Shown piece by piece: positions 23,297 through 32,475 of a stretch of 33,846 nt of DNA; position 1 is the first letter of the stretch, and each line of letters starts with the position of its first letter. This stretch comes from an uncultured Verrucomicrobia subdivision 3 bacterium. GTDB taxonomy: Bacteria > Verrucomicrobiota > Verrucomicrobiia > Limisphaerales > UBA8199. The stretch lies in NCBI GenBank assembly GCA_903913865.1, contig CAIWMU010000011.1:1-33846 (forward strand). Direction: 5' to 3'. Under the pieces are notes generated by a model. That model was given only the letters and a program-made list of their open reading frames with translations. It did no database searches and was not told the DNA's origin. The position numbers and the translations under genes were made by a program.

Positions 23297-25384
23297 ATGC
23301 GCCACCCCTTGCAGACACCCCTCAGCCTGTGGATTGCCGCCATCCTCTGCACCCTGGCGCAAAGCTCCCCTGCCGACCCAGCCGTGGATGCCGGCAGCAC
23401 TTGGCATCGATGGGAACATGTCCTGACCAGCCAGCGGGATTACAAGAACCCCTGCACGGATGTCGTATTGGCCGCACGCTTTGTCGGCCCCGGAAATCAG
23501 GTGCACACCAACCTCGGCTTCTGGGATGGCGACCGGAGCTTTGTCATCCGGTCCACCTTCCCCACTCCGGGCGATTGGCACTGGCAGACCCTCTGCTCCG
23601 ACACCTCCAACACCAGCCTTCACGCCCAATCCGGCATCGTGAGGGTCTCCAGGTCCACCGGATCAAATCCCATCGTGCGCCATGGATACCTCCGTGTTTC
23701 CGGGGATGGCCGTCTCCTGGTCCACGCCGACTCCACCCCCTTCCTCTGGATTGGTGACACCTGCTGGGCCGCCCCGGTCCATGCCACCACCGCCGAGTGG
23801 CGGCATTACGTGGCCAACCGCTCCAGCCTCGGCTACTCGGTTCTCCAGGTTTCCATCGCTCCCGATTGGGCGATCAAAACCGCCTCCGAGGATCCAAAAC
23901 CGTTCCTCTCCACCCTCCCGGACATCACAAAGCCCAACCCCCGGTTCTTCCGGCGGATGGATCAGATGCTGGCAGAGGCCAACGATCAGGGACTGGTGGT
24001 GATGATGTGCGGACTCATGGAGACCCCCCACCGCTATCCCCCACCCGAACAGACCGCCATCCTCAGCCGCTACATCGCCGCCCGCTACTGTTCCTACGAG
24101 GTCATTTTCTCCCCGAGCTTTGACAGCGGCATTCATGAGGCTGAGACACTTGCCGCAGCCCGGGCCGTCCGCTGGGCTGCCCCGCAAAACCTCCTCACCA
24201 TGCACATGGGCACCGGGGTGGAACCCCGGTTCCACGCGGCAGACTGGCTCTCCTTCGACATGTTCCAGAGCGGCCACAACGGCGGGGATGCCGCCAGACA
24301 ATCCTCCCGCGCGGTGTCCATGCCCGCTGAGATTCTCTCCCTCGCTGGCAGAAAGCCGGTCATCAACGGCGAGGCCATCTATGAGGGGGACCTCGGCGGG
24401 GCCTATGATGTTCGCCGCACCGCATGGTTGAGCTTCCTTTCCGGTGCCTCCGGCTACACAGCCGGAATCAACCAGGTTTATGCGTGGAAACCGGATGCCA
24501 TCGCCCGCATGAATGTCCCATCCAGCGGGCAGATCGCCACACTGGGCCGATTCCTCCGTGCCATCCCCTGGTGGGATCTCAACCCCGCCCCCGGACGCAT
24601 TCTGAACCAGACCGCTGACCGGGCCGCGCTCATGGCCTTCGCACTCACAACCGACAGGCAGCTCGGCATCGCATACCTGCCCCGGAACGACAGCGTGACC
24701 CTCGATCTGCAAGACTTTCCATCCGCCCTCAGCATCCTCTGGATCAACCCCGCAACCGGGCAGTCCCATCCGGGCACCCCCCTTCAACCCTCCACCCGCA
24801 CCACCATCAAAGCCCCCGACGGGAGGGATTGGGTGCTTCTCCTCACAGCCCCGAATGCATCCCAAAACAGATCCATCCAGCGGGCATTGGACAAAGGCCG
24901 CACCCGCATCAACGGTTCCCGCGCCACGCTCACTTTTGGTCCCCGGGATTCCATGAATGGTCTCGTGCAAAAATCCCCCGCTGATGGGGTGCTCGTCACA
25001 GGTTCGTTCAAGGGAAAAGCCTGCGCCATCAACGAAAACCCGGGACGGAATCGCTACCTTTACATCGATATCGATGATCGCCTCGCTTTCCGGGGTGCCG
25101 TGGGAAAAATGCGGATGGATGTCCAGTTGCACTCCGACAAGCCGCTGGATGCCGTGCAACTCCAATTCGACTCAACCGGCCCGGCACAGGTCTCCAATAC
25201 CTATCGCCCGGTGTCCCCCACCTCCTGCAGTCGGCATGGGGACTGGACATCCCTCACGTTCGAGGCTCCCACCCCCTATCTGGGCAACCGCCAGAATAGC
25301 GGCGCCGATTTTCGCCTCTATCTGGGCACCAATCTCTGCCACGTTGCCTCGATCAAGGTGACTCTCGAACCGGCGGCTCGTTGA
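23297..25384 (+). CDS. Secreted DUF5060-DUF4038 glycoside hydrolase-like protein
   Basis: About 695 residues with a signal peptide (LSLWIAAILCTLAQSSPAD). An N-terminal DUF5060-like beta domain (WHRWEHVLTSQRDY, LGFWDGDRSFVIRSTFPTPG) covers about 30-125. The DUF4038 TIM-barrel (apiosidase/GH140-like) runs about 140-430, starting DSTPFLWIGDTCWAAPVHAT and including INGEAIYEGD with a possible catalytic Glu. A C-terminal beta region resembles the putative collagen-binding domain that follows DUF4038 in related proteins (RAALMAFALTTDRQLGIAYL), plus an extra beta-rich segment after about 520. Likely role: outside-the-cell breakdown of a plant or algal polysaccharide side chain. Start ATG 23297 chosen for the signal peptide. 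Its last 32 bases overlap the 3' end of the convergent polymerase gene. Confidence 0.85.
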   Translation: MRHPLQTPLSLWIAAILCTLAQSSPADPAVDAGSTWHRWEHVLTSQRDYKNPCTDVVLAARFVGPGNQVHTNLGFWDGDRSFVIRSTFPTPGDWHWQTLCSDTSNTSLHAQSGIVRVSRSTGSNPIVRHGYLRVSGDGRLLVHADSTPFLWIGDTCWAAPVHATTAEWRHYVANRSSLGYSVLQVSIAPDWAIKTASEDPKPFLSTLPDITKPNPRFFRRMDQMLAEANDQGLVVMMCGLMETPHRYPPPEQTAILSRYIAARYCSYEVIFSPSFDSGIHEAETLAAARAVRWAAPQNLLTMHMGTGVEPRFHAADWLSFDMFQSGHNGGDAARQSSRAVSMPAEILSLAGRKPVINGEAIYEGDLGGAYDVRRTAWLSFLSGASGYTAGINQVYAWKPDAIARMNVPSSGQIATLGRFLRAIPWWDLNPAPGRILNQTADRAALMAFALTTDRQLGIAYLPRNDSVTLDLQDFPSALSILWINPATGQSHPGTPLQPSTRTTIKAPDGRDWVLLLTAPNASQNRSIQRALDKGRTRINGSRATLTFGPRDSMNGLVQKSPADGVLVTGSFKGKACAINENPGRNRYLYIDIDDRLAFRGAVGKMRMDVQLHSDKPLDAVQLQFDSTGPAQVSNTYRPVSPTSCSRHGDWTSLTFEAPTPYLGNRQNSGADFRLYLGTNLCHVASIKVTLEPAAR

Positions 25385-28300
25385 AAACCAATCCCGCACC
25401 CTCCCCCCGGCTTCTGGGCCGCCCGGCCCGCATCACCCGCAGGGAAAATCCCCGGCCATTCTCTGTCGGCTCCACCCGCGCCTCCACCTCCAGCACCGGA
25501 TACCGCACCGTTGCCAGCACGTGGCTTTTGTAGGCGCGCGCGAACAGTTCCGTCTCCACGATTCCCGTCCAGTCGGCCAGGGTCAGGAATTTCATCGGCT
25601 CCCCCGTGATCTGGTGGTGTGTGCGCTGCTCAATCACCAGTCCGCACGTCGTCACCACCTCCCCCACAAACTCCCCGAGCCTCCCCACGGGGCAATAGGT
25701 CTCCCATGCCACCGTGTCAAATAACTCCAGCGGATGGCCGCTCACGGCAAAGCCGAACAACTCCGTCTCCCATTCCAACCGTTCCCGCCGCCCCGGTTCC
25801 TGCAGCGGCACCGCCACCACCTGCTCCAGCCCGGGCGGCGGGATGAGCCACCCCTGCCCCGGCTCCACCCCATCCCCGAAGGTCCTCGCCAGATGCTGCG
25901 CCTGCCAGAACTGCCGCGTGCGGCTCTCCCCGAACTCATCAAAGGCACCCGCACGGATCAATGACTCCAGCTCCTCCCGGGTCGGGGCTACCCTGTGAAA
26001 GAAGTCCACGATCGATGCAAACGGCCCGCGCACCCGCGCCGCCAGAATCGCATCACCCGTCCGGGTTGTGAGCCCCTTGATGCGTGTGACCGGCACCCGG
26101 ATTCTGCCCCTTCCCCCATCCCGCCCACCGGCGCACTCCGCTGCGGGAGGGTGTGGCACAAAGGCGGGCCCCGGCTCATTGACCGATGGGGGCATGAGGC
26201 TGATGCCCAGCCGGCGCGCTTCCAGCACATAGACGAGCGGATCGTAAAACCCCTTGCCGTTGGTGAGCACAGCCGCCATGAACTCCGTGGGATGCCGGAG
26301 CTTCAACCAGGCCGCCTGATATGCCTCCACCCCGTAGGCCGTGCTGTGGGCCTTGCAGAAGGCGTAACCGGAAAAGCCGCACACAAGATCCCAGACCTCC
26401 CCCGCCCGTTCCGCAGAATGGCCCCGCGCCAGGGCCCCTTCAAAAAACTCCCCGCGCATCTCCGCCACCACGGTCTGCCGCCGCTTTGTCAGGGCCCGGC
26501 GCAGGACATCCGCCCGGCCCGCTGTCATCCCGGCAAACGCCTCGCAGATCTGCAAAATGTGTTCCTCATAAACCACCAGCCCATAGGTGCTCCGCAGGCA
26601 TGCCTCCAGCGAGGGATCCGGATAGACCACCGGCTCCATGCCCTGATACCGCCTCGTGAAGGCCCCTTTCTTCCCCTCATTCGCCGCCCCCGGCCGGATC
26701 ACACTGACAATGGCCACAAGCCCGTCGATCTCCCTCACGTTGCACATGCGGCAGAGGCTGATCATGGCCGGGCTTTCAATATGGTGCACAGCCCTCGCAT
26801 TGCCCCCCGCAATCAACTCCCACACAGCCGGATCGCACCACGGATCCCCCGCCGATCCATCCACCGGGGGAGGCCCGCCCCCGCCCTTTTCCCAGGCCAC
26901 ACACCGCTCCAGATCGATCCCGATGCCCCGTGCCTCCAGCATCCCCTTCACATCCCGCATCACCGCCAGCCCTCCCTGGGCCAGAATGTCCATTTTCACA
27001 AGCCCCACCTGCTCGACCGCATCCATGTCAAAATGGGTCGTCGGCCATCCCTTGTTGGCGGTGAAGGTCGGCGTCAACTCATGCATCGGCTGCCGGGAGA
27101 GCACCACACCGCAGGGATGCATCTTGGGATGGCGCGGAACACCCTCGAGAAACCCGGCCATTTCAATCGCCGTTTTGTAGGGCTCCTCCTCCAGTGGCAG
27201 GGTGCGCGTCTCGGGCGCAGCCTTCAACAGCTCGATCAATCCGGCCCCGTGGTCATCCATCCCGCCCCCCATGCCCCCGCCAAAACTCCAGGGAAAATGT
27301 TCGGTGAACCGGCGCACATCCCGCTCCGCAACCCCCAGCACCTTTGCCACCTCGGCAAACGCGCTGCGGGCCTGGAAGGTCGAAAAGCCCCCCACCACCG
27401 CACAATGGTCCCCGCCGTATTTCTCAAAAATGAGCCGCACCACATCATCCTTCTCGTCGTGCGCAAAATCGATGTCGATATCCGGCAGCTTGTGCATCGC
27501 CATCCGTTCCTTGTTCAGGAACCGCCGGAAATACAGGTCAAACCGGATCGGGCACACCCCGCTGATGCCGAGGCAGTAGCAGACCAGGCTGTCCGCCGCA
27601 CTCCCGCGCGTGATCCAGTGGATGCCCCGCCTCCTGCATTCCTGCAAAAAATCCCAGGTGATGAGAAAATAGTCCTCGTAGCCAACATCCCTGATGATCC
27701 CCAATTCCTCCATCGCCTGGCTCCTGAACCGCCCGGCTCCAGGCCCGTAGCGCTGCTCCAGCCCCTGAAGCACCAGTCGGCACAGAAACTCCCCCGGCTC
27801 CGTGCCATCCGGCGTTGTGAAGGATGGAAACTGCGGCTTCCCGGGCGGAAGATCAAAGTGGCATCTCTCGGCAATCTCAATCGTGTGCCGGATCCATTCC
27901 GGGTTCTCCCGCGCCCCCCGGGCCATCTCGGCGGCGGTGCGGAAATGGAGCCGCCCGCCCGCCCGCTTCTCCGGATGCCCCTCCCGCAGCAGTGTCAGTG
28001 TGCGGATGCTTTGGACAATGTCATATTTCTGCCGGTCCCCGGCCGGACCGTGGTGGATGGAGGGGCAGGCCACCTCGCGAAAGCCTTTGGGTGCCCTGGC
28101 CGCCGTCAACATCCGGTAGAACCTCCCCTCAAACCGCTCCGCCAGCCGTTCATCCGTGCCAACCGCCAGCAAGCCCCCGGCAAGCCCGTCGAATTCCTGA
28201 AGCCGGTAGGGCCGCCTCTGCTGGTCCGCCACACTCCCGCCCTCCACCCCGTGCCTCGCGGCATGGCGCGAAATCAGGCGGCAAAGATTTGCATACCCGG

Positions 28301-29795
28301 CGGCCGACTCCACATGGAGCAGCAGCGGGGCATTCTCCACCACCAGTTCCACCCCAAGCACCGGCTTGATGCCCGCCTGCCGGGCCGCATCCAGAAACTC
28401 CACCGCACCGTGCAGGTTCCCGGCATCCGCCAAACCCACCGCCGCCAGCCCCTGCCCGGCCGCCAGTCTCACGATCTCCGCCGGGGAAAGTGTCGAATCC
28501 AGAAACGAGTAGTGGCTGTGCGCCCGCAACGGAACATAGTCCGGGATGGCCACCCTGGCTGGAATGACGGCGCGGCGGGCCGGCACCGGCTGCTCCCGCA
28601 CCGCCACCGCCTCAACCGGCGGGCTTCGCAGCCGCAGATCGTGCCCGCGCAGAATGACTCCCCGCCCATGGGCATGCCGCAGCTCATCAATCACCGCCGC
28701 CAGCCTCGCCTGCGCCCCCACCCGCTCCGCCGGAATCCCCAGCGGCAGTTCCCCGCCAAACCGGCTGTCGTAAAGATTCGAGAGCTTCAGCGAAACCAGC
28801 CGCAGGCTCACACGCCGCCTCCACGCCTGCTTCAGCATCCCATGCAGCCGCCCATGCACATCCGTCTCAAGATCCGTCGGCTCCCCAAGGCTCTCGCTGA
28901 CCGTGTCCTCCCCCATGTCGTTGTAGCGCACCCTCACCGTCAGGGTGCGGATCGTCCGCCGCTCCGCACGGACGGTTGCGAACAGATCATCCGCCATCCG
29001 CCGCAGCACCGCCTCCACATAGCCCTCATCCGTCAGGTCCGATGCAAAGGTCTCCTGCTGGCTGAACGTCTTCTGCGGCTCCCGCGCCGGGGTGATCGGC
29101 CGCTCATCGATCCCGTGCGCAAACTGGCGGATCACCGCCGCCTGCCCCCCCAGCATCAGCTCCAGCATCTCCAGCGGCGTGGCCGCCACCTGCCGGATCT
29201 GCGCCAGCCCCGCCGCATCCAGCCGCGCCCCCGTCTTCGGCCCGATCCCCGGCAGCCACCGGTTCGGCAACGGATGCAGAAACGCCGCCTCCCCCCCGCT
29301 CTGCACCTCCCGGAATCCCCCGGGCTTCGTCAGCTTCGATGCCACCGCACTGACCAGCTTGTTGGTCCCTATCCCCTCGCTGACTGTTATCTTCAGCCTC
29401 TGGCCGATCGCCTGCCGGATCGTCTCCGCAATTTCCACCGGCGGCTTCCGCGCCCCTGTCACATCAAAGTAGCCCTCATCAATCGACGTCTGCTCCACAT
29501 CCGGCGTGAAATCGTAGCAGTAGCCGAACATCCAGTCCGAGAACTGCTCGTAACGCTCGAAATCCCCCGCCAGCACCACAAGCTTCGGGCAGAGCTTCCG
29601 CGCCCGTGCTGTCGGCATCGGCGTGTAAACCCCAAACTTTCGCGCCTCATACGATGCCGAGGCAATGATCCCCCGCTTCTCACCCCCAACCGCCACAGGC
29701 CTGCCCCGCAATTGCGGATCCGCAGCCTGCTCCACCGCCGCAAAAAATGCATCCGCATCCAGATGCACAATCGCCCTCGAGCGAATGGGTCCCAC
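25353..29795 (-). CDS. DinB-type Y-family polymerase fused to DnaE2-like C-family polymerase
   Basis: One uninterrupted frame of about 1480 residues joins two DNA polymerases. Residues 1-~410 are a full Y-family polymerase: HLDADAFFAAVEQ gives catalytic D13 and steric-gate F18, and QTSIDEGYFDVTG gives D106/E107. The HhH motif (LPGIGPKTGARLDAAG) and little finger (LRLVSLKLSNLYDSRFGG) follow. From ~417 a DnaE begins with a PHP domain (YVPLRAHSHYSFLDSTLSPA), then the palm with LPDIDIDFAHDEKD (~772) and VKMDILAQGGLAVM (~935), which together hold the three catalytic Asp. Next come the HhH region, the YLGFYLSGHPL-like segment (ELFGFAVSGHPLELFD) and an OB fold (~1380). No tau-binding tail is seen, as in DnaE2. 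The gene follows lexA on the same strand, implying an SOS mutagenesis role. The start is uncertain: GTG 29795 or GTG 29816; the frame continues upstream through REP repeats to 29987. Confidence 0.93.
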   Translation of the reverse strand: MGPIRSRAIVHLDADAFFAAVEQAADPQLRGRPVAVGGEKRGIIASASYEARKFGVYTPMPTARARKLCPKLVVLAGDFERYEQFSDWMFGYCYDFTPDVEQTSIDEGYFDVTGARKPPVEIAETIRQAIGQRLKITVSEGIGTNKLVSAVASKLTKPGGFREVQSGGEAAFLHPLPNRWLPGIGPKTGARLDAAGLAQIRQVAATPLEMLELMLGGQAAVIRQFAHGIDERPITPAREPQKTFSQQETFASDLTDEGYVEAVLRRMADDLFATVRAERRTIRTLTVRVRYNDMGEDTVSESLGEPTDLETDVHGRLHGMLKQAWRRRVSLRLVSLKLSNLYDSRFGGELPLGIPAERVGAQARLAAVIDELRHAHGRGVILRGHDLRLRSPPVEAVAVREQPVPARRAVIPARVAIPDYVPLRAHSHYSFLDSTLSPAEIVRLAAGQGLAAVGLADAGNLHGAVEFLDAARQAGIKPVLGVELVVENAPLLLHVESAAGYANLCRLISRHAARHGVEGGSVADQQRRPYRLQEFDGLAGGLLAVGTDERLAERFEGRFYRMLTAARAPKGFREVACPSIHHGPAGDRQKYDIVQSIRTLTLLREGHPEKRAGGRLHFRTAAEMARGARENPEWIRHTIEIAERCHFDLPPGKPQFPSFTTPDGTEPGEFLCRLVLQGLEQRYGPGAGRFRSQAMEELGIIRDVGYEDYFLITWDFLQECRRRGIHWITRGSAADSLVCYCLGISGVCPIRFDLYFRRFLNKERMAMHKLPDIDIDFAHDEKDDVVRLIFEKYGGDHCAVVGGFSTFQARSAFAEVAKVLGVAERDVRRFTEHFPWSFGGGMGGGMDDHGAGLIELLKAAPETRTLPLEEEPYKTAIEMAGFLEGVPRHPKMHPCGVVLSRQPMHELTPTFTANKGWPTTHFDMDAVEQVGLVKMDILAQGGLAVMRDVKGMLEARGIGIDLERCVAWEKGGGGPPPVDGSAGDPWCDPAVWELIAGGNARAVHHIESPAMISLCRMCNVREIDGLVAIVSVIRPGAANEGKKGAFTRRYQGMEPVVYPDPSLEACLRSTYGLVVYEEHILQICEAFAGMTAGRADVLRRALTKRRQTVVAEMRGEFFEGALARGHSAERAGEVWDLVCGFSGYAFCKAHSTAYGVEAYQAAWLKLRHPTEFMAAVLTNGKGFYDPLVYVLEARRLGISLMPPSVNEPGPAFVPHPPAAECAGGRDGGRGRIRVPVTRIKGLTTRTGDAILAARVRGPFASIVDFFHRVAPTREELESLIRAGAFDEFGESRTRQFWQAQHLARTFGDGVEPGQGWLIPPPGLEQVVAVPLQEPGRRERLEWETELFGFAVSGHPLELFDTVAWETYCPVGRLGEFVGEVVTTCGLVIEQRTHHQITGEPMKFLTLADWTGIVETELFARAYKSHVLATVRYPVLEVEARVEPTENGRGFSLRVMRAGRPRSRGEGAGLVFNEPPVRESP

Positions 29796-29804
29796 CGAGC
29801 GAAT

Positions 29805-30050
29805 GGGGTCAGTCCTCACCTTTTTGTGTCGTTTACAAAAAGTGAGGACTGACCCCTGAGCGGGAAATCGGTCATCCCATCCACCCGACACGACACCCCA
29901 CACCTTTTTGTGTCGTTTACAAAAAGTGAGGACTGACCCCTGAGCGGGAAATCGGTCAACCCACTCACCCGACACGACACCCCACACCTTTTTGTGTCGT
30001 TTACAAAAAGTGAGGACTGCCCCCTTCGCGGACCCCTTCGCGGGAAATCG
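29805..30050. repeat. REP-like palindromes, three units of 84-bp period (family A)
   Basis: The first unit is a near-perfect hairpin at 29805-29856: arms begin GGGGTCAGTCCTCAC and close GTGAGGACTGACCCC around a GTCGTTT loop. The right part plus the trailer CGGGAAATCGGTCA repeats with a period of exactly 84 bp (CACCTTTTTGTGTCG at 29817, 29901 and 29985). As 84 is 28 codons, the repeats stay open on the minus strand, in frame with the polymerase. Nothing else is recognisable between lexA and the polymerase. The same family recurs at 31.8-32.3 kb. Such elements are usually spread by RAYT transposases, none of which is in this window. Confidence 0.88.
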
Positions 30051-30066
30051 GTCATCCCACTCACCC

Positions 30067-30690
30067 TCAATCCCTCCCCTTGCGAATCAGCCCGCGGAAC
30101 ACCCCCTGGATGACCAGTTCCTCCGAGGGGATCAGCTCCGGATAATTCGGATTCTCCGCCTTCAGAAACGGCCTGCCGTTCCTCACCAGGAACGTCTTCA
30201 GCGTGTTCTTCCGGTCAATCAGCGCCGCCACAATCTGTCCCGGTCTCGGCTCCGGCCCATGCTCAAACACCGCGATGTCCCCATCGCAAATATGCCGCCC
30301 GATCATTGAATCCCCCACCACCCGCAGCGCAAAGGTGTTCCGGGTCGGCTTGAACCCGATGCTCTCCACATCCACGGACACACACCCCTCCGGCTGCTGC
30401 TCACGGTCGCCCGCAAACCCGGCCGGGATCGTCCCAAACAGCGGAATATCCACAATCCGCCCCCGGAGCAGCGCCAGCGGTGTCACAACCCGCAGTGTCC
30501 GCGCCTTGCCCGGATCCGATTCAATGAACCCCTTCCTCTTCAACGCCTCCAGATGGCACGCCGCCGCACGATGGCTCCGGAAACCAAACTGCGCCGCAAT
30601 CTCACGCACCGTCGGAATCGGCCGGCCCGCATGGACCTCTGCCTGAAGAAAATCCAGGACACGCTCCTGTGCTGGGGTCAGTTCATTCAT
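30067..30690 (-). CDS. lexA: LexA SOS repressor
   Basis: A 207-residue LexA, the usual family length. The N-terminal winged helix (1-65) reads LTPAQERVLDFLQAEVHAG, then IPTVREIAAQFGFRSHRAA. The C-terminal S24 peptidase-like domain has the self-cleavage Ala90-Gly91 bond (GTIPAGFAG), nucleophile Ser128 (VVGDSMIG) and general base Lys165 (NTLKTFLVR). RecA-stimulated self-cleavage should therefore work. The recognition helix (SHRAAACHLEAL) differs from the E. coli type, in line with a different operator. The start ATG at 30690 lies two bases after a palindrome that is probably its own operator. It is divergent from the aldo/keto reductase and precedes the polymerase fusion, its likely main target. 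Confidence 0.96.
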   Translation of the reverse strand: MNELTPAQERVLDFLQAEVHAGRPIPTVREIAAQFGFRSHRAAACHLEALKRKGFIESDPGKARTLRVVTPLALLRGRIVDIPLFGTIPAGFAGDREQQPEGCVSVDVESIGFKPTRNTFALRVVGDSMIGRHICDGDIAVFEHGPEPRPGQIVAALIDRKNTLKTFLVRNGRPFLKAENPNYPELIPSEELVIQGVFRGLIRKGRD

Positions 30691-30692
30691 AT

Positions 30693-30730
30693 CTATCCAA
30701 ATGGATAGCAGTCCCGCAAATCAGGGTCAA
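30693..30730 (-). promoter_or_regulatory. lexA promoter with overlapping palindromic operator
   Basis: The palindrome CTATCC-N4-GGATAG (30693-30708) lies directly before the lexA start codon. On the minus strand a -35-like TTGACC (30725-30730) is followed after 17 bases by TATCCA (30702-30707) as -10. The left palindrome arm is thus the -10 box, so a bound repressor would block polymerase. Transcription would begin at or within a few bases of the ATG, which predicts a leaderless message; no Shine-Dalgarno site fits. The -10 match to consensus is only moderate. The same site could also affect the divergent reductase, whose start is 65 bases away. Confidence 0.6.
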
Positions 30731-31799: not shown

Positions 31800-32262
31800 A
31801 GGCGAACAGGATCAGGCCCTCGCGGGCAATCGGTCAACACCCGAGCGCCATGGGGTCAGACCCCTGGCGCGGGAAAACGGTCATCGCCCATCCGCAACGG
31901 TTTCCACCATCTGCGCCATCTGCGGATAACCCCTCCCCCGAGCGATGGGGTCAGTTCTCATCTATTGAGGCCGGCCCCAGCCGGACTCGACAGTGACCGA
32001 ACTGACCCCTCGCGGGAAATCGGTCAACACCCGAGCGCCATGGGGTCAGTTCTCACTTTTTGTGCCGTTTACAAAAAGTGACGGCACTGACCCCTGGCGC
32101 GGGAAAACGGTCATCGCCCATCCGCAACGGTTTCCCCAATCTGCGTCATCTGCGGATAACCCCTCCCCCGAGCGATGGGGTCAGTTCTCATCTGTTGAGG
32201 CCGGCCCCACCCGGACTCGACAGTGACCGAACTGACCCCTCGCGGGAAATCGGTCAACGCAC
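31800..32262. repeat. REP-like repeat array (family A), two 230-bp units
   Basis: No gene is supported. The block contains the same GGGGTCAG...CTGACCCC hairpins and CGGGAAATCGGTCA trailers as the lexA-polymerase gap, including a version with the TTTTTGT-type loop near 32041-32092. A longer unit starting GGGAAAACGGTCATCGCCCA repeats at 31871 and 32101 (period 230 bp) and includes TCCGCAACGGTTTCC and TCTGCGGATAACCCCTCCCC. A last single trailer is at about 32897. Short frames through it are artefacts of the repeat. Confidence 0.88.
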
Positions 32263-32279
32263 ACACACCCCACTCCCCT

Positions 32280-32475
32280 ACGCCAACGGCATTGTGCCCT
32301 ACAGCCCGGCGTTACGCCGGGTATGAGGACGGATTGCCCTTCAACGCCAACGGCGTTGTGCCCCACAGCCCGGCGTTACCCCGGGTATGAGGACGGATTG
32401 CCCTTCAACGCCAACGGCGTTGTGCCATAAAGCCCGGGGTTGCGCGGCTCTCCGCGCTACCCCGGGTGCGCTTGG
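32280..32475. repeat. 64-bp tandem repeat (family C), three copies
   Basis: Copies begin ACGCCAACGGC at 32280, 32344 and 32408, a period of exactly 64 bp. Each carries the palindrome-rich AGCCCGGCGTTACGCCGGGT followed by ATGAGGACGGATTGCCCTTC. The third copy is diverged, with an expanded hairpin (GCCCGGGGTTGCG ... CGCTACCCCGGGT). A further related palindrome, AACCACAACGTGGTTGTG, follows near 32489-32506. No gene is present. Confidence 0.85.

Follow-up and report, generated by a model that had tools for sequence, protein, structure and literature searches.

The question raised by this locus of an uncultured Verrucomicrobia subdivision 3 bacterium is whether one protein can hold two DNA polymerases, whether both halves are catalytically competent, and what such a chain would do in the cell. 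The locus probably encodes a self-contained SOS translesion mutasome, a single PolY-DnaE2 chain that is repressed by LexA and binds RecA. The window, i.e. the whole stretch of 33,846 nucleotides that was analyzed, carries an open reading frame called at 25353..29987. The frame ends with a stop at 25353 and is open to 29987 and, via a repeat, beyond. GTG at 29795 is most likely the start (Table 1), but this is uncertain by some codons since the frame upstream of it enters a tandem repeat. The plus-strand reading of 25353-29795 is interrupted by stops.

The initial annotation had proposed that one continuous frame holds two polymerases, without naming a strand; the frame is confirmed and is on the minus strand. 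Pfam matches on the 1480-aa protein are, in order, IMS (12-154), IMS_C (242-341), PHP (423-515), DNA_pol3_alpha (670-939), the finger domain (985-1124) and HHH_6 (1197-1294). The residues pointed out in both halves, D13, F18, D106/E107, PDIDIDF (D772/D774) and VKMDIL (D936), are all present. A short linker had been placed near residues 400-417; a linker is indeed found, and its position here is about residues 391-420.

Table 1. Coordinates of the fusion gene, its domains and motifs, and its upstream region
Feature	Position	Strand	Basis or remark
Fused PolY-DnaE2 polymerase gene	25353..29795	minus	1480 aa from GTG 29795
Y-family polymerase core, residues 7-345	28761..29777	minus	Pfam IMS and IMS_C, AF2 model, PDB Pol IV matches
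Y-family D13 codon	29757-29759	minus	
Y-family D106/E107 codons	29475-29480	minus	
RecA-N-terminus-like motif, residues 358-390	28626..28724	minus	Column-shuffle test; helix 354-376 in model
Variable linker, residues 391-420	28536..28625	minus	
PHP domain and segment after it, residues 421-669	27789..28535	minus	Pfam PHP 423-515; exonuclease site lost
C-family catalytic region, residues 670-939, D772/D774/D936	26979..27788	minus	PF07733, E 1.9e-66
C-family finger domain, residues 985-1124	26424..26843	minus	PF17657
Helix-hairpin-helix, residues 1197-1294	25914..26207	minus	PF14579
QGWLI, putative sliding-clamp motif, residues 1314-1318	25842..25856	minus	Alignment with DnaE1
C-terminal beta domain, OB-like, about residues 1380-1458	25422..25658	minus	Strands in model
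lexA, 207 aa, next gene upstream of polymerase	30067..30690	minus	TIGR00498, 143.2 bits (cut-off 110.95)
Putative LexA operator CTATCCATTTGGATAG, palindrome	30693..30708	minus	Similar palindromes before lexA in relatives
Putative promoter: TTGACC 30725-30730, 17 bp, TATCCA 30702-30707	30702..30730	minus	Read from sequence
Tandem copies of dispersed hairpin repeat, lexA-polymerase gap	29817..30025	minus	84-bp unit, 2.5 copies

Occurrence of the fusion in other genomes

The fusion is present in many Verrucomicrobiota, usually directly behind lexA. Of the 191 relatives returned by a genome scan across 84,980 species, the best 80 were analyzed; the scan patterns were drawn from the C half of fusions, and the best 80 of 191 loci do not amount to a census. 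Both halves are in one open reading frame at 73 of these 80 loci, and the other seven begin at a contig edge. One of the seven (L144) starts inside the RecA-like motif and hence also spans the linker. Imperfect cases among the 73 are L132, cut at a contig edge, and L153, which stops early; at L100 and L129 the N-terminus is lost to a frame change. Chance or a frame artifact was rejected on the counts of 73 loci in one frame and seven at a contig edge. The 14 full-length relatives share 60-75% identity with the window protein.

Forty relatives, source genome included, comprise 21 with the fusion or its fragments, one with the Y half only (G005) and 18 without the fusion. The fusion runs end to end in a single frame in 15 of the 40 (G000-G004, G006-G008, G011, G018, G021-G023, G026, G036). 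A stop is flagged inside the match in G003, G004 and G018, yet single open reading frames of 1441, 1610 and 1441 aa, respectively, hold both halves. G009, G016 and G030 have a frame that spans the linker but breaks at a later point. In G012 the contig ends just beyond the linker and another contig opens with the identical eight residues, and G010 and G025 have fragments only. A phylum sample of 387 genomes, searched at E 1e-105, gave, besides the source genome, single-frame fusions in G226 and G378 and a fusion spread over two contigs in G333.

Two genes joined by error during assembly, or a chain cleaved after translation, might be thought to lie behind the long frame. Most fusion loci come from metagenome-assembled genomes (MAGs), L100, L129 and L153 carry a frameshift or a truncation, and in G009 the parts are on different contigs, with a Y-side frame that ends past the PHP start. 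Against this, the fusion is in one frame in the cultured isolate Brevifollis gellanilyticus NBRC 108608 (L148), in a single-cell genome (L117) and in a MAG that has a contig of 1.74 Mb (L147), and one-frame fusions are spread over genomes of nine families. Assembly error is refuted by the isolate together with this breadth of genomes, and an artifact of either kind is scarcely credible. Within contigs, a split into two genes at the linker was found at none of the best 80 of 191 loci, and none of the 80 has a degenerate half; G005, outside this set, has the Y half only.

The locus in G005 (L081:5178-7043) consists of lexA followed by the Y half alone, a 404-aa protein that ends soon after the RecA-like motif. 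It is a natural truncation within the fusion clade, the DnaE2 half being gone. The C half is therefore dispensable in G005, which retains lexA and the Y half by themselves.

Two polymerase halves and the joint between them

Conservation of residues was assessed in an alignment of 81 proteins, the window protein and those of the best 80 of 191 loci. In the Y-family half, D13 is Asp in all 71 rows that reach that position, and D106 and E107 are intact in all 72 rows that reach them. The steric gate (F18) is Phe in 65 of 71 rows and Tyr in six. The AlphaFold2 model of this half displays a complete Y fold (mean pLDDT 92, pTM 0.69). Among PDB entries it matches best, at E 7e-38 to 5e-32, a Dpo4-type model and Pol IV of E. 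coli (4r8u/4irc, E about 1e-32); TM is only 0.55-0.58 with an rmsd of 16-18, i.e. the domains are differently placed. The half had been labeled DinB. The NCBI Pol IV model PRK02406 is passed narrowly (265.8 bits, cut-off 256) and the other Pol IV models stay below their cut-offs. The polymerase IV likeness thus stands in part, but the half forms a clade of its own outside the sampled DinBs and carries a RecA-like motif.

The C-family half has Asp at D772, D774 and D936 in 81 of 81 rows each. In the AlphaFold2 model (pLDDT 84.6, pTM 0.82) a C-family fold extends from the PHP domain to the C-terminal beta domain, and the nearest PDB structure is Mycobacterium tuberculosis DNA polymerase 7pu7 (TM 0.79). 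In the PHP domain none of the 81 rows has an Asp at the position of E. coli D201, and none has a His at the His44-equivalent position, which is a gap in two rows; the proofreading exonuclease site is lost. The tail past the OB-like region (after R1461) is at most 45 aa in the 81 rows, without the long DnaE1 tail. Absence of the C-terminal tau-binding domain is a trait of DnaE2. The description of this half as DnaE2-like holds in view of the inactivated PHP site, the lack of a long C-terminal tail and the intact catalytic Asp residues. Among family models, the superfamily model TIGR00594 is passed (576.8 bits, cut-off 434), and the NCBIfam error-prone DNA polymerase PRK05672 gives 509 bits against a cut-off of 939, the narrower DnaE models likewise being below theirs. 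The source genome has matches for one LexA, one RecA, one IMS protein and two C-family polymerases. A DnaE1 duplicate was considered and rejected: the second C-family polymerase (C234), taken as DnaE1, is encoded elsewhere, and the C half is outside the sampled DnaE1 clade.

Both halves are under purifying selection and both catalytic sites are conserved; as proposed in the initial annotation, both error-prone polymerases look competent. For seven of nine close pairs, dN/dS is 0.04-0.08 in the Y half and 0.07-0.12 in the C half; dS exceeds 1 in several pairs and the ratios are rough. The pair L102/L105 gives 0.124/0.112 and the very close pair L088/L101 gives 0.32/0.21. These data bear on the possibility that the Y half is a scaffold like ImuB, which would bind RecA and DNA and direct the chain to its target, with all synthesis left to the C half. 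Such a division of labor has a precedent in ImuA-ImuB-DnaE2, where ImuB is the scaffold and its C-family partner synthesizes (PMC6511836, PMC12926913). In the fusion, however, the Y catalytic residues are unchanged in all rows long enough to include them, dN/dS of the Y half is below that of the C half in seven of nine pairs, and the Y half is far from the four sampled ImuBs in the tree. A scaffold role is improbable. A dead, ImuB-like Y half was rejected on catalytic residues and tree position, and the proposal of an apparently competent Y site, unlike that of ImuB, is upheld.

The joint between the halves begins after the little finger with a segment that aligns with the RecA N-terminal motif, a feature of Y-family proteins described by Timinskas and Venclovas (PMC6511836). 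A plain HMM search put RecA at background (E 1.4 and 2), with the split PolYs L194 and L193 at the top (E about 0.001). As RecA could not be told from background in this search with the RecA-NT profile, a column-shuffle test was used. The best window of a 67-row profile in the whole of E. coli RecA is residues 9-32, with four of 1000 column shuffles as good. On the RecA N-terminus of the source genome none of 1000 shuffles was as good, and for UmuC the top position is residue 371 (7/1000). The AF2 model has a helix at 354-376 in the motif region. The motif thus has statistical support, and it is predicted to bind RecA.

The linker that follows is richest in P, A and R. Split PolYs have a QxxLF motif before the RecA motif, QLDLF in G043 and QIDLF, QINLF and QMDLF in those of four Bacteroidetes plasmids. 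At that position of the Y half only L119 of 74 fusion rows has a motif of the QxxLF type, and 58 of the 74 have E(L/V)x(L/V) instead. At the DnaE1 clamp position, set by alignment with E. coli and verrucomicrobial DnaE1, the fusions mostly have QGWL(L/I/F) (Q 65/81, W 64/81, L 68/81); this putative clamp motif ends in L or I rather than F in most rows. The clamp motif has apparently moved from the Y half to the C half, where it may bind the clamp.

It might be argued that the two polymerases are merely delivered together, both active and acting independently on different lesions, with the fusion fixing equal amounts and a single clamp and RecA address. Both sites are conserved, a linker of 24-134 aa (median 33, 75 rows) implies no precise geometry, and the Y half persists alone in G005. 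Yet 73 of 74 rows have no QxxLF in the Y half, while the separate PolY of G043 keeps QLDLF, which points to recruitment of the Y half through the C half. Independent action of the two halves is considered rather unlikely. For a single-chain mutasome as proposed above, the built-in hand-off from inserter to extender that the initial annotation suggested is plausible but hypothetical; the conserved sites indicate that both sites are kept, not that a primer end is transferred.

Origin and comparison with known mutasomes

In the Y tree the 27 fusion Y halves and the lone Y half of G005 form one clade (100/100, the bootstrap being not quite settled), which is apart from 10 DinBs, four ImuBs and Bacteroidetes PolY; the 10 DinBs are separated from it at 95/91 and 100/96. 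A second, midpoint-rooted Y tree omits eight long-branch or dead rows (UmuC, the L193 PolY, four ImuBs and two Streptomyces iPolY), and in it the PolY of G043 is sister of the fusion clade (98/95). In a quick, unrooted C tree the 27 fusion C halves are one clade and the DnaE2 of G043 is its sister, both at SH-aLRT 100, followed by the split DnaE2s of Desulfosarcina and of four Bacteroidetes (SH-aLRT 98). In the same tree, which has no outgroup or published group labels, 13 DnaE1s and the DnaE2s of ImuB or Streptomyces systems fall elsewhere. The fusion halves are outside the sampled DnaE2A.

G043 is of the same phylum, and its separate PolY and DnaE2 are the sisters of the two fusion halves. 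They differ from the fusion in being on two contigs, the PolY at a contig end and the DnaE2 flanked by other genes, and in the QLDLF of the PolY. The simplest reading is a single fusion event between two partners that already coexisted, with later loss of the C half in G005, as G005 nests inside the fusion clade.

Other sources were also considered. A scan of viral contigs for a phage origin gave no match. A plasmid search reached at least 5000 records, and the 20 rows listed are all below 33% identity. Nine of 10 plasmid records inspected have Y-family and C-family polymerases as separate open reading frames, and the tenth, from Paroceanicella, has only a dnaE; with identities this low and separate frames, a plasmid origin is not supported. 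A Desulfosarcina ovata plasmid (L193:1525-7300) carries lexA, a DUF72 protein, a Y-family protein and a DnaE2, all in one direction; the Y-family protein has altered catalytic motifs and is annotated as hypothetical.

Among described systems, the DnaE2B-PolY-RecA modules of Bacteroidetes (Cellulophaga algicola type; PMC6511836, PMC12926913) are a better comparison than ImuA-ImuB-DnaE2. According to these papers, they combine an active PolY with a DnaE2 and predicted RecA binding and do without ImuA and ImuB, as the fusion apparently does. These modules are made of separate polypeptides, whereas the fusion is one chain. The C. algicola type was compared through its published description, and the sequences compared are those of other Bacteroidetes pairs. 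In the C tree the fusion C half is joined (SH-aLRT 98) by the DnaE2s from four plasmid-borne Bacteroidetes pairs. The dinB and dnaE genes of Emticicia, Adhaeribacter and Chryseobacterium are neighbors but remain two genes. The Bacteroidetes pairs differ further in that PolY keeps QxxLF and identity is about 30%, and the three annotated pairs, unlike the fusion, have no co-directional lexA just upstream.

ImuA-ImuB-DnaE2 shares with the fusion a LexA-linked, error-prone pairing of Y-family and C-family members, as described in the literature, but consists of three proteins, with a catalytically dead Y member, a DnaE2 of another clade and ImuA. Order-mates without the fusion use the ImuB system (G017, G024, G032, G038); four of the 18 non-fusion genomes have ImuB (E 1e-10), strong ImuA matches and a DnaE2. 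ImuB was found in none of the 22 fusion or Y-only genomes versus 4/18 of the others (Fisher p 0.033, relatedness ignored). Where the 22 have ImuA matches, these are only at E 1e-6 to 1e-5 and in frames of RecA-like length. A single ImuA query gave no match at E 1e-5 in the source genome, which has one RecA-family match. Two loci of order-mates without the fusion (L206:3806-8529 and L208:205-5815) carry imuB-dnaE2, with imuA adjacent in L208. DNA polymerase IV (DinB) shares the fold, catalytic triad and steric gate; it differs in clade and in having no fusion partner, and most DinBs are without the RecA motif (PMC12926913).

The initial annotation noted no described enzyme of this architecture, and none was found among the papers listed from open-licence PMC full text, as judged by titles and the openings of abstracts. 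A survey of more than 3000 species distinguishes 11 kinds of DnaE2/PolY modules; in its available text each is made of separate proteins, and the word "fused" occurs twice and is never applied to PolY with DnaE2 (PMC12926913). The available parts of PMC6511836, PMC3919608 and PMC3765255 contain no PolY-DnaE2 fusion. The protein is best classed with the PolY-DnaE2-RecA type, as a variant fused in cis and coupled to LexA; its parts are known, and no literature report of the cis architecture was found.

Probable LexA control and a proposed mode of action

The gene next to the polymerase encodes the only LexA_DNA_bind match of the source genome. With duplicates, lexA is linked at 74 of 80 loci; once six duplicate loci are removed, it is upstream on the same strand at 68 of 74 distinct loci with more than 800 bp of upstream sequence and missing from six. 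The distance is at most 150 bp in 58 of the 68. A link to LexA, drawn on in the initial annotation as a parallel with ImuA-ImuB-DnaE2, is supported by this position. LexA is found in 22/22 fusion or Y-only genomes versus 1/18 others (Fisher 2e-10, relatedness ignored), and LexA_DNA_bind has no match in the four genomes with ImuB.

The putative operator CTATCCATTTGGATAG overlaps the −10 element of the promoter-like site; with up to one mismatch allowed, no second copy was found in the 6.27-Mb genome (95% complete). Perfect palindromes with arms of at least 7 precede lexA in 42 of 72 distinct upstream regions versus 3.9% of shuffles; the best palindrome has shorter arms in the other 30, and TTGAC is present in 56 of the 72. 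By eye, there is no like palindrome before recA of the source genome. A classical SOS regulon is not supported, since the operator is found once in the genome and not before recA. The operator sequences differ strongly among relatives, and the palindromic form is often kept. It is as if each LexA were co-evolving with one operator.

The gap between lexA and the polymerase contains a dispersed hairpin repeat, with three copies between the two genes and one also at 32056-32078. Its core, CTTTTTGTAAACGACACAAAAAG, has 23 genomic sites at up to two mismatches, the reversed control having none. A second tandem array, with a 64-bp unit in 2.5 copies, is at 32280-32441. Rfam gave no match between lexA and the polymerase. 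The repeat stretch in the gap has an RNA fold z of −5.46, and its last hairpin ends just before the start codon; the hairpins may damp expression of the polymerase relative to lexA.

The following sequence of events is proposed. Without damage, LexA would sit on the palindrome over the lexA-polymerase promoter, as the position and conservation of the palindrome suggest. Upon damage, RecA filaments would trigger self-cleavage of LexA, in line with known LexA biology, and one long protein would be made. The RecA-like motif would dock RecA and so license the enzyme, as proposed for other PolY mutasomes. The Y-family half might then insert opposite the lesion, and the C-family half, with its PHP proofreading site lost, might extend the distorted end. 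The clamp motif, now in the C half, would keep the entire chain on the primer end, which either active site could then take by virtue of the linker. In its fullest form, with two active sites working in cis on one primer end, one clamp motif, licensing by RecA and a LexA that may be private to the operon, the proposal is possible and is put forward tentatively. LexA may serve this operon alone since there is a single operator and since LexA is found almost only with the fusion in the 40 relatives.

If this fullest form holds, the whole SOS mutagenesis program would be one two-gene cassette. Mutasomes in bacteria usually comprise several proteins and are difficult to reconstitute, and other bacteria use separate proteins; a single chain with two separable active sites makes the inserter/extender model testable by point mutation and linker change. 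In the Rosetta-stone sense, the fusion further hints at physical cooperation of PolY and DnaE2 where these are separate genes. The findings also suggest that LexA, in some of the Verrucomicrobiota, may act as a local switch of a single mutagenic enzyme and not as a global regulator.
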